The translations under genes and the position numbers were made by a program. From NCBI GenBank assembly GCA_034190875.2, contig CM067356.1:28517047-28581046 (forward strand): DNA of 64,000 nt. Reading direction: 5' to 3'. Positions 53,901 to 64,000 of this stretch are shown here, one piece after another; positions within the stretch are counted from its first letter, which is position 1, and each line of letters opens with the position of its first letter. The notes under the pieces are model-generated. The model saw only the letters and a program-made list of their open reading frames with translations, searched no databases and had not been told where the DNA came from. The DNA comes from Urechis unicinctus (taxonomy: Eukaryota > Annelida > Polychaeta > Xenopneusta > Urechidae).

Positions 53901-54000
53901 NNNNNNNNNNNNNNNNNNNNNNNNNNNNNNNNNNNNNNNNNNNNNNNNNNNNNNNNNNNNNNNNNNNNNNNNNNNNNNNNNNNNNNNNNNNNNNNNNNNN
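53901..54000. other. Assembly gap of exactly 100 N
   Basis: A placeholder gap at which the repeat family changes orientation: left flank is Z/W direct, right flank is W inverted. Confidence 0.98.
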
Positions 54001-57000
54001 ATTTCAATGCCACATACAAAGGTACCATAATCGACTTGCCATCGCCATGTGCTTGATTCCTGCTTTCTAATACATTGTGCTTTATTTCACTCATTTCGGC
54101 ATTCATATGCATATTTTTCAGTGGCCACTGGCCAACCTGTTGAGCCGCTTGTTCAATGTGTACGCAATGAAATGTTTTTTTACCGAAAACGCTTCACTTG
54201 CCAAGTCTGCAAGTTCTTTTTATTATTCAAAAGATGCAAGCATTCCACGTATTACACGCTTGAGCTACATTGACACCAGTGTCTATCAATCTTGAGGCTG
54301 ATATATACCTGCTCCTTGGCAACGGAAAGGTGCAATAAAACATGATCAGAGGGGAGGCACTCAAATAACATCTATGCTAGGTACCACCCACATTGACTGG
54401 TAGTATTTGCCTGTCTATCTCATAATAATGACAGCGGTGTAAATAAGCCTTGCAAGTTGTTCGATGATTTTGCCACATGGTTCCTTTCACTCTTATGGAT
54501 ACATATCTCAACATAACTTTGATATAGGCTAGAGAATCGATAGCTGTTACATGAAGGCCTGTTTGTCTTACTGGTGTGCATTATTCAAACAAGGAGAAGA
54601 TGGAAAACATTGCACTGACGTAAACGATTAGGGTGTTGCATATCATATATATTTATCAAATCGACGCCACCACTCACTCCCAACTAGACCCATCACCCCC
54701 CAAAAAATCCCACACGGTCAAATTCAGCCTTGGGGGAACGCCTGTAACATTTCCACTAGAACGCGACCTGACACGGAGCATTTGATTATCTGATTATCCT
54801 AACGCCAGCAATAGTCAAATGAACCTCGGCAACATGTCATCACTTGCCATTTTAGTAATAACTATAAAGTAGCAATTATACGAGTATTTGAAAACCTTAT
54901 CTTCTTAAATCAACCAAGCGACACATTGCAGCAGAGATAATGCTAAACCTGCTTTTGCTGTAGGAAGTAATTTGTAAAATTCAGATTCGATGAATACGCA
55001 ATGGCCTATCTACTATCCAATACAATGGCGATGTCAGTGCTGTGTGGCTATGAAACACATGGCTTACGGTTATATAACAATTCATAGAGAACTTAGTTCT
55101 GACAAGCATCGACATGCGCAAAAGGCTGTTTACGAGTGCAATCAACTTTGATAATTTATAATAGGACGTGCAATAGTTCTTGTGTTGATATTTGCTATTT
55201 AGAATATGTGCCATGTGCTGTATCCCGCATTGGACACCTGCAATGATTAAAGAGCTCCAATCTCTTTTGCTGCGGTTATTTTGGTTATTGTTGAGCCTCA
55301 ATGCATCATACGATACTTCACGAGCTTATAGACTAGGAGCAACTGAATGCTATCTAATTGTTTGATAGTACCCACAAAACCTAAGATAGCTATCATTGGG
55401 AAGATAATTACGATGCTGTGACTGAAATGGTTAGGGGTGCGGCATCATAATCACGACCCCGACAAAACATGCAGCATATAGCAGAAGACGTATAAATTGT
55501 ACCAAATAAGCTGTTAAAGGCATGATTGTTATTGTTCTAATAGCTATACCGGGCTATGCACGACAATAAATTAGCAAATTAGTGTGCATATGATAAGAGC
55601 CATCTGTTAGCATGGAAAGGCAAAATGACGGTTGAATTGTTTTCATTTATTTGGCATTCATTATACATATCAAACGACGCAGATTAGGCGTTGTGGGCCT
55701 GTTATGTCCAACGGTTGGTTTTGGAAAGCTTTCATTCGGGGGGTTTTTTTATTACACCTCATTCCTATTATTGTCAGTAATTAAGCCAGAACAGAACCTC
55801 GCACCATGATGGTCGGATACCAGTCAGCTGTTTTTAATTACATAGTCGCAAACACGCGGGCAAAGAATACATGAATAATTTCCCTGAAATTTTTTGCAAG
55901 TGTCTTAGGTAACTAGTATTACTTGTTTTTTTTTTTTTATTCACAACTATTACCGTCTTTCATTCCCTGTGTATTGCATACAAAAGTTGTAATTTACGTT
56001 TACCGCTGCTATTGTTTTTGCTATACTCATATATTTGGCACATTGCACGCATCAAACAACTCCATGATAGAATCGTTATGCTGAAGATTGGTAGCACACG
56101 ACTCTCAAGTGTGCAATGAGAATAAAAGTAGAGATGAATACACGCGCGCATGCCACGCGGGCATGATTACATGGATGATGAGGTGTCCTCTCTGACGTGT
56201 GTTTACTTGTTCTCATATAACTACGCACTGCACTGGTTTAGCTTAGGAATGCGTTATGCACTGCAGATCTGCAACGATGTTGTTGACACACAAATGATGT
56301 TGGGTGTGTCAGTTGGAACGAAGGATGGAACCGCGCAAATGATGCACTGGCTTACAGGTGTATTTGGACTTATGCACGACTCTCAGCTAAGTCAGCATTG
56401 CATCCAATAGAATGCGAGACATTGTTTACTGTTGTGCTGGCGTTTATGATAAAGCGACTCTTTCGGATGCTTCAACATTCACAATGATCGACTCAGTATG
56501 TCAGAGGAGGTGGTGCATTCAGAAAAAAAAATTAAATAATATATACAGTGTAACGTATCATGATCCGAGTGTTTGACGCAGTACCCATGTACAGTGGTAT
56601 AGTATGTACAAGAGCATGTTGACACCAATACAAGTCATCGATTTAGACATGAGACAGGATCATAAAAACAGAACAAATACAATAATATATATATAACGGG
56701 TATATCACAGGGTCAGGTGCCCTAACTAACACAGTTCGACTACAAAACCCAAAAGAACGCTTTGAACAAAGACAGCAATTGTGGTTGCTTGAGTGAAAAC
56801 GCCTAGCAGCATACATTGCAAGATGTTTGCAGCTTCTGTATTATATTGAGGCTAATCGACCGAGTCACTTACCAAAAAGTGACGACGCCTGCTGTGATGG
56901 AAACTCTCGAATGATATTAGACCACAGACCCATCGACATATTAAAGACGACATGTTTTGTTGAGTCGAGTAGATGTTATGTTCAGCCGAACCAGCGTGCG

Positions 57001-60956: not shown

Positions 60957-61489
60957 CGTATGCTGGTGTTTATTTAGTGGCAAACGTGAATTGTTTGCTT
61001 TTGAAAATTTTCAGTTACTTTCTTCTGACGTGGCAAAGATTCTTACGATATTGATGTTTGATGTCTCTGGGCCACAGAATCTTGGCGTCAGTGATCAGCA
61101 TGTCCATATCTACGTTTCGGACAGTTAGCTGTTTTGTTTTTGTTTCCAACTTAAGAGGGTCGTTTTTCCCATAAACACCTACTTACTGTCATAATGTTTA
61201 TCGTCATCTTCACAATCACTGTGATGCTATTTAAGTCGAATATCACGCCAAAGATGTGTCATCTACTTAAATGGAAACCTGTCACTATAATGGTCTGATA
61301 TATGTCATCTCCTCGCATTTGCACAATTGCATATACAATATCCTGCACTCATCCTTTTTGGTTAGTCTCAAACTATTACCATGAGCTAGCCTTTTAGTCG
61401 TCAATATGTTGGCAAAGAGTACACATATAGGTTTTTGAAAGATTTTCAATTAATAAGTGTCTTGTTTAACTGTTGGTTGTTGTTAACCC
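60957..61489 (+). other. Unique stretch, no gene supported
   Basis: Starts with the flank shared with 60565 and otherwise shows no repeats, domains or splice-bounded frames. Confidence 0.5.
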
Positions 61490-64000
61490 ACAATTATCAT
61501 CGACTTTCCATCCATACGCATAACATACAAAAGCTGTAATATTTGATAACCGCGGCTAATATTTTTGCTAAATCCTATTTTGGCACGCGACCAAACAACT
61601 CCATGATGAGATCCTTATGCTGATGATTGATAGCACATGACTCTCAAGTGTACAAAGCGAATATGTGAGGGAATAACTACACGCGCGCATGCCACGTGGA
61701 CATGATTACATAGATGAGGAGTGGTCCTCTCTGAACTGTGTTTCGCTTGTTCTTATATCTCGGCATCGGTTAGGCTTAGGAATGCGATACGCATTGCTGA
61801 TATGCAGCGATGTAGCTGATCGCGGGCAGCTTTGGATATGTCAGCAGGAATGATACAATCAAGCCGAAGGAGTGATATAGAAGCACTACTCTCTGCTTAG
61901 TCAGCATTGCATCCAATTCAATACGAGACATTCTGCGACATTGTTTGCTGCTATGCTGGCGTTTATTGTACATCGGCTTTATTCGGATGCTGTAATATTT
62001 ATAATGCTCGGACTACTTAGCAAGTCATAGGAGGTTTTGCATTCAGGAAAATTAGTTACATAATATATACAGTGTAACCAATAATGAATATAATTTTTGG
62101 CGCAGTATCCATAAACAGTAGTATAGTCGGTACTGGATTGACGTCGGTGACATGAGACAGGATGAGTGGCTGCAATAATCAACCAAAATAGTTGCAATAA
62201 TATACATACACGCGGTGCATCAAATTGTCAGGGGCATTTACTGACACAGAACGGCTACAAAACGCATACTTTTTATGGAACAAGAACAACAATTGTGGTT
62301 GCTTGCTTAAACACGACTAACAGCTTACATTGCAAGATGGTACTTGACTCTATTTATAACTGCAATCCTGACCTCTAGAGGGCAGCATGCGTATGATAAG
62401 ATCTGCATCTTGATACAGATTGTTGTCAATTTTTTCAGCTTGTTCACTACATTAAGGCTTATCGAACGGGTCATCAGCCCAATAGTAATGATGAATGTTG
62501 TGGTGGAAACTCTCGAATGATAATATATTGTAGACCCATCGATTTGCTAGAGACAACTGGTTATGTTGAGTTGAGTGGACGATGTACGCAATACCAGGCA
62601 CATGCATATCACATGTTAGCAGTAAACACCAGGCAATAGTGGATGTTTATGTAAACAAAATCGATCTGAGAGCACTTGTTCCCATAGTGCGGATACTGTT
62701 AGATTGGGGAGATGGGGCACATGCTTCTTACTCATAAGTCACAAAACCGTTATGACGAGGTTGAGAATAGAGTTTTCATCGTAGAGGATTGCCATGACGA
62801 CACCTGTAGCCTCAGAAACATTTATCCCAGCAGCCAGCTAAACCATAATCGTCGCTGTCACTAGTATATATTATCTATATCATTATCAGCATCATCATCA
62901 ATATCGTCACAAGCACCTCACGCCATGGTATGAGATATTGATGATGATATCGTTGCAAACAATTTGTTATTCTTCAGGAAGTACTCTCTTCCATTTGAGG
63001 CTATATTATACGATATTGTCGTGATGATTGAGTAAGATATGGTTGTAAAATTATACAGCAGCTGACTAAACTAATCAGCCATGATTAAAAACACCATGTG
63101 GATGACGATTACAATGTGATACCAACCAGGATGGCACACCACAAAACATGTACCAACGACCTATTATTATACAGCAGCGACTTATTCAGTGCTTAATTTG
63201 AAGATCTTTAAATACTCACAAATCAAGTTCAACATTACCAATACATGATGAAAGACTGAATATTTAAATGCAGCCTTCATATCGTGTCATATCCATTTCT
63301 AGAATTCATAAAGATCATTCTCATTGCGTTCGTGTGGTCTATGTGGTTATAGAACCATGATACCCGCGAGTAAGTAGCATCTGTTACCGATAGCACATGA
63401 CATCAATAAGAACCCCGGCTGGCCACTGTATGACAAAGCATCCAAATGGTGGAAATAACACCATATAAGCTCATATATGTACCTTGCTGTATTTTAGTGA
63501 TCACTAGAGTCAGGCATCTTTCCTCTAATCTACTTCCAGTCTAGGGATATTTGTTCTGCTAACCCGGTCATGACCTCCACATTTTGATTTCTTTAGGTTG
63601 TACTTCCAGTTGCGTGAAAGTTGATACAAGTTATGTGTTCATCTGGCAACAATTAGCCCATCAGCAATATGCAATCGAACATACGAATAGTATGGTAACA
63701 ACACAAGGAATCATTTGTGTTACATCGACGATGATGAATGGAGTTATTTGAATGCTTATACAACTGATTGTTATGTGCCATGATTCATTTGACTCAAGTG
63801 TAATGTCGACTTTATGTCCACATTTACAGGCACTCAGACGAAAGTCTATTGTAAGCCACATGTTTTGGATGTATAATATTGGCCACCAAGTCTCCAAAGG
63901 TAGGGACTTTCTTTTTATTTTGACGTTTCATTGCCGAAAGCGATGCATACCTCCAACCCTGAGACGAGCAAACCCAATTTGTAAAACAGATGTAGACAAG
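61490..64000 (-). repeat. Older diverged copy of the inverted Y/Z/W block
   Basis: Runs parallel to 55940-58130: caaacaactccatgat (61590), acacgcgcgcatgccacg (61680), tatatacagtgtaac (62062), ggatgtttatgtaaacaaaatcgatctg (62641), cgttgcaaacaatttgttattc (62950), ccaaccaggatggcacac (63120) and gaaagcgatgcatacctcc (63937) all recur in order. Many indels and substitutions show it is much older than the other copies. It continues past the window end. Confidence 0.85.

Follow-up and report, generated by a model that had tools for sequence, protein, structure and literature searches.

A strand change at a scaffold gap in a Urechis unicinctus repeat cluster: a probable orientation error of a single contig

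Two described situations come closest to a repeat family that changes strand at an assembly gap: the misorientation of short contigs in Hi-C (high-throughput chromosome conformation capture) type scaffolding, and true inverted segmental duplications or palindromes in tandem repeat clusters. A passage of PMC6719893 states that the true orientation of short contigs weighs about the same as wrong orientations, and a passage of PMC10659057, citing Dudchenko et al., states that orientation errors are commoner than errors of order or assignment. We analysed a 64,000-nucleotide stretch of the 1.19-Gb genome of Urechis unicinctus (the window; C15:28517047-28581046, where C15 is our label for the host scaffold), in which a repeat family changes strand at a scaffold gap. 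This change is probably a scaffolding orientation error, in which the middle of three contigs (contig 2) was inverted in place. As in the first situation, contig 2 is short and repetitive and lies between two 100-N gaps, and its reversal restores the order of gap-free copies; however, the cause here is deduced from sequence. As in the second situation, both polarities occur on one scaffold and one switch is free of N; however, the switch studied here sits in N and no sequence crosses it.

The two gaps that flank contig 2 (37018-37117 and 53901-54000) consist of 100 N each, the convention for a gap of unknown length. Contig 2 is 16,783 bp long, or approximately 1.8 tandem units, and neither end carries unique sequence. 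Its units u1 and u2 were 97% alike over 7.2 kb (97% overall in self-BLAST and 99.5% in block X1), and the remainder of the contig mostly had homologues in contigs 1 and 3. With block names coined for the present analysis (W, X1, R, A, Y0, Y, Z and B), the order in the family is W - X1 - R (X1e, X1.5, X2, X3) - A or Y0 - Y - Z or B, some blocks being absent from single copies. Contig 2 reads A-Y-B-X1-R-A-Y-B-X1. Contig 3, read on the minus strand, ends W-X1-R and breaks off within X2; in contig 1, R occupies 18645-21200. The features on which the argument turns are the following, in window positions.

37018..37117, no strand: 100-N gap between contigs 1 and 2 (count of the N run).
37118..46313, plus strand: tandem unit u1 of contig 2, A-Y-B-X1-R (self-BLAST, X1 identity and block profile).
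44545..46353, plus strand: sub-block R (X1e, X2, X3) of contig 2; contig 2 ends at R edges and the start of contig 3 falls inside R.
46314..53900, plus strand: tandem unit u2 of contig 2, truncated near the X1/R border (self-BLAST and block profile).
53901..54000, no strand: 100-N gap between contigs 2 and 3, where the family changes strand (count of the N run and self-BLAST).
54001..55750, minus strand: contig 3 copy of R (X2, X1.5, X1e), 97.5% identical to a sister copy at C15:28668953-28670732.
56059..57468, minus strand: contig 3 copy of X1, 95.7% identical to u1 and 95.8% to u2.

When self-BLAST alignments of at least 150 bp were considered, all matches between contigs 1 and 2 were on the plus strand, all matches of contig 3 to contig 1 or 2 were on the minus strand, and those within contig 3 were plus, confirming the claim of the first-pass annotation that the family flips strand at a 100-N gap. 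Below this cut-off, a few short minus matches (57-97 bp), mostly of CAT/TGA simple repeat, linked contigs 1 and 2. No exact overlap of at least 12 bp was found between contig ends when all pairings of the four ends were compared.

The starts of contigs 2 and 3 fitted each other closely. Positions 37118-37356 matched 46314-46551 at 97.9%, and 45130-45571 matched 54467-54001 in reverse at 84.2% (both by self-BLAST); at both starts the homology extended to the outermost base. The equivalences given by the first-pass annotation (54001 with 45571 reversed, 37118 with 46314) were thereby confirmed, and the approximately 740 bp that it reported as missing came to 742 bases between 45571 and 46314. 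It had further called this fit hard to ignore. The coordinates do fit, but if contig ends are taken as random within the 9196-bp period, we calculate that about 8% of cases would show correctly ordered ends no more than 742 bp apart. In addition, both ends of contig 2 and the start of contig 3 lie in R or at its edge; if breaks tend to occur in R, a close fit is to some extent to be expected. The fit of the two starts is suggestive but not compelling.

The adjacency of the contig 3 and contig 2 starts, which the first-pass annotation had also proposed, was supported by gap-free paralogs. These were taken from 270 kb of C15 in 27 fetched stretches plus eight short loci; among the matches listed (best candidates only), those of three genome queries all fell on C15, at 28.34-29.17 Mb. 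A sister of contig 3 was found 98 kb away (C15:28668953-28694999), colinear with contig 3 through the window part to C15:28599438. Identity was 97.5% in the first 1.75 kb and mostly 75-93% in later pieces, with some stretches unaligned. The stretch that holds the sister (C15:28655000-28694999) contained zero N. To the left of the equivalent of the contig 3 start, the sister carried X3-A-Y on the minus strand; because this series continues past that point, the sister shows the arrangement expected of a flipped contig 2. Positions 37119-40733 of contig 2 aligned in reverse to the sister in four pieces at 81-90%, with 38944-40202 unaligned. The equivalents of the two contig starts were approximately 1040 bp apart in the sister. 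Among the seven gap-free copies with both anchors the spacing was 243, 742, 998, 999, 1037, 1040 and 1051 bp, so 742 bp is one estimate of the missing length within this range.

The order of X2 and X3 was also followed through the fetched sequence, where X2 matches of at least 120 bp were counted (n = 10, including that of contig 3, which runs into the gap). In eight of the nine other copies X3 clearly followed on the strand of the copy itself, the intervening sequence being free of N, and was in turn followed by A1 (six copies) or Y0 (two copies). Three of these eight were fetched only to approximately 1.4 kb past X2, and the three may not be independent, since two of them are a 99.3% identical inverted pair. 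In the ninth, an old copy (29017157), X3 was matched weakly at a distance of 1.2 kb, and this match overlapped one to Y. Two further cases of X2 followed by X3 come from hit positions alone, a clear one at 28429445 and a weak one at 28337065; at 59452-59541 of the window, contig 3 also has an X2 fragment of 90 bp, under the 120-bp cut-off, with no adjoining X3. Reversing contig 2 restores the block order found in this gap-free sequence, that is, in the sister and in eight clear and one weak of the nine X2 copies. A possible but unlikely alternative is that the printed order is right, in which case plus-strand contig 2 and minus-strand contig 3 would truly be neighbours in inverted orientation, and the gap would conceal where the two halves of an inverted segmental duplication meet. 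The X2 of contig 3 would then break an order that is clear in eight of nine others, all proceeding to A or Y0. The gap would have to hold the R of contig 2, the X3 of contig 3, probably A, and the inversion point, which amounts to several kb unless the turn lies inside R, and the near fit of the contig starts would be a coincidence.

Several observations weigh against an inverted contig 2. The X1 of contig 3 was as close to u1 (95.7%) as to u2 (95.8%), favouring neither unit as its neighbour. The A block of contig 2 was 81-90% identical to that of the sister while the R of contig 3 reached 97.5%; contig 3 could therefore have a left neighbour closer than contig 2. The last 11 kb of contig 1 have a paralog (C15:29002189-28989663, 83-92%) that leads, approximately 20 kb on and across a 2500-N run, to a W-X1-R-A-Y series with the polarity of contig 1, which would mildly favour contig 2 as printed with at least 20 kb missing. 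Strand changes were also common in the cluster: when 17 loci were defined by merging nearby hits, eight of the 16 neighbouring pairs differed in strand, the gap at 53901-54000 included (as counted from hit positions alone). A strand flip is by itself unremarkable at this frequency and proves little. One switch was free of N: in locus L004 (3407 bases, 0 N) a minus-strand Y ends at 28880056 and a plus-strand X1.5 starts at 28880069, showing that inverted neighbours without a gap do occur in this family, as in a true inverted duplication. Two further loci, L007 (C15:28845994-28849398) and L006 (C15:28866333-28869738), are inverted relative to each other, share 99.3% identity over 3406 bp and lie approximately 17 kb apart; either they form a palindrome or the assembly has a second artefact here. 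It is doubtful, though conceivable, that the printed order is true with R as the turning point; the cluster would then grow by both inverted and direct duplication, and the R of contig 3 would be one arm of a palindrome centred in the gap.

The surroundings of contig 3 bear on which contig was turned. The sequence up to the last base of contig 3 (C15:28590234-28603273) formed a dovetail at 92.7-95.1% with the sequence from the first base of the next contig (28603374-28619107), the two contigs being separated by a 100-N gap and the partner being approximately 2.5 kb longer than the contig 3 side. In the sister, contig-3-like sequence precedes the equivalent of the start of the next contig. A 5000-N run follows the window end, and colinearity with the sister spans it (approximately 5.2 kb there). 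Because of the dovetail and the order in the sister, the printed place and direction of contig 3 are most likely correct. The first-pass annotation had instead fitted contig 3, reversed, as the left neighbour of contig 2, a proposal that was not supported: contig 3 dovetails with the next contig, and flipping contig 2, an option that the annotation did not raise, gives the same join. Taken literally, with contig 3 reversed between contigs 1 and 2, the proposal is highly improbable. It would bring all copies in the window to a single polarity and retain the 742-bp join, but the right side of contig 3 forms a dovetail with the next contig, which it precedes to judge from the sister copy, and the first 20 kb of the next contig had no match of at least 150 bp to contig 2. 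The left ends of contigs 2 and 3 can be joined in either of two ways, by moving and reversing contig 3 or by flipping contig 2 in place; the latter is by far the smaller alteration.

The end-to-end overlap of contig 3 and the next contig at 93-95% is itself a pattern that either unpurged haplotypes (false duplication) or a tandem duplication would be expected to produce. A passage of PMC9516828 includes half read depth and one-copy k-mers among the criteria of heterotype false duplication; here, the duplicated pair was found to be split by an assembly gap. This haplotype-like overlap at the next gap lends something to the reading, improbable in our view, that contig 3 does not adjoin contig 2 at all, the latter coming from another part of the cluster or representing an alternative haplotype. 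Its ends without unique sequence, and the recurrence of its B block at C15:28634264 and 29037119, are consistent with such a placement. However, among the matches listed, no allele-like copy was found outside contig 2 (queries: the first 1 kb and 45100-46700), and the best outside matches of the A block were 89-91%.

If contig 2 is inverted in place, the true order would be contig 1, contig 2 reversed, approximately 0.7-1.0 kb of missing sequence, and contig 3 as printed. The actual adjacency of contigs 2 and 3, like the course of the scaffolding, is an inference. The breaks would have fallen in or at R, a sub-block with many copies in the cluster, and proximity data would have been able to place contig 2 but hardly to orient it, since it comprises 16.8 kb of approximately 1.8 tandem units without unique ends. 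Flipping contig 2 would shift the polarity switch of the family to the gap at 37018-37117.

Other copies of the family in the window were as follows.

291..3964, plus strand: contig 1 copy Y0-Y-Z; beyond the left edge of the window, loci L020-L021 hold W-X1-R-A with matching polarity.
16033..25488, plus strand: contig 1 copy W-R-Y0-Y-Z, in which X2 runs gap-free into X3 and Y0.
57459..58670, minus strand: W block of contig 3, also present in contig 1 at 16033-18649 (interrupted there), with no match found in contig 2.
61395..63902, minus strand: older, diverged W-X1 copy of contig 3 (self-BLAST).

The right end of contig 2 (53900) lies within approximately 10 bp of one border of a 1.4-kb deletion carried by the contig 1 copy (18645, where W is joined to X1e), either by coincidence or through a common fragile point. 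Within 54001-57468, the R of contig 3 was 97.5% like the sister copy, and the adjoining X1 was approximately 90% identical to the sister but 95.7% to contig 2; this mosaic of identities suggests gene conversion.

An insertion with a reverse transcriptase open reading frame (ORF; RVT_1) and an ATT-rich end was observed at 16223-17465, within the W block of contig 1, and its uninterrupted counterpart lies in contig 3 near 58480. Judged from the spacing of W pieces, an insertion at this site was also present in the other contig 1 copy and in the copy at C15:28967 kb, and was absent from the sister of contig 3. RVT_1 was the only Pfam match above cut-off in scans of window ORFs (20 plus ten, six of the ten being repeats) and of five sub-stretches; a few other matches were below the cut-offs. 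The Pfam scans were aimed at genes that might cross the gap; searches of the window for tRNAs and Rfam families found nothing. Cysteine-bearing ORFs at 11494-11820 (minus strand) and 2556-2690 (plus strand) were kept in several cluster copies and broken in some. The former has a signal-peptide-like start by eye, and neither had a Pfam match at its cut-off. Codon-position counts on the conserved ORFs rested on few changes. These ORFs may be exons of a duplicated gene family encoding secreted proteins.

An ordinary assembly artefact, as opposed to a biological inversion, is the likeliest origin of the strand flip at the gap. If contig 2 is indeed flipped, any inversion or palindrome call, or model of copy order, based on this scaffold would be in error; the remedy would be local, confined to one 16.8-kb piece. 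For contigs bounded by repeats, the block order at a gap can be compared in general with that of gap-free paralogs from the same cluster.
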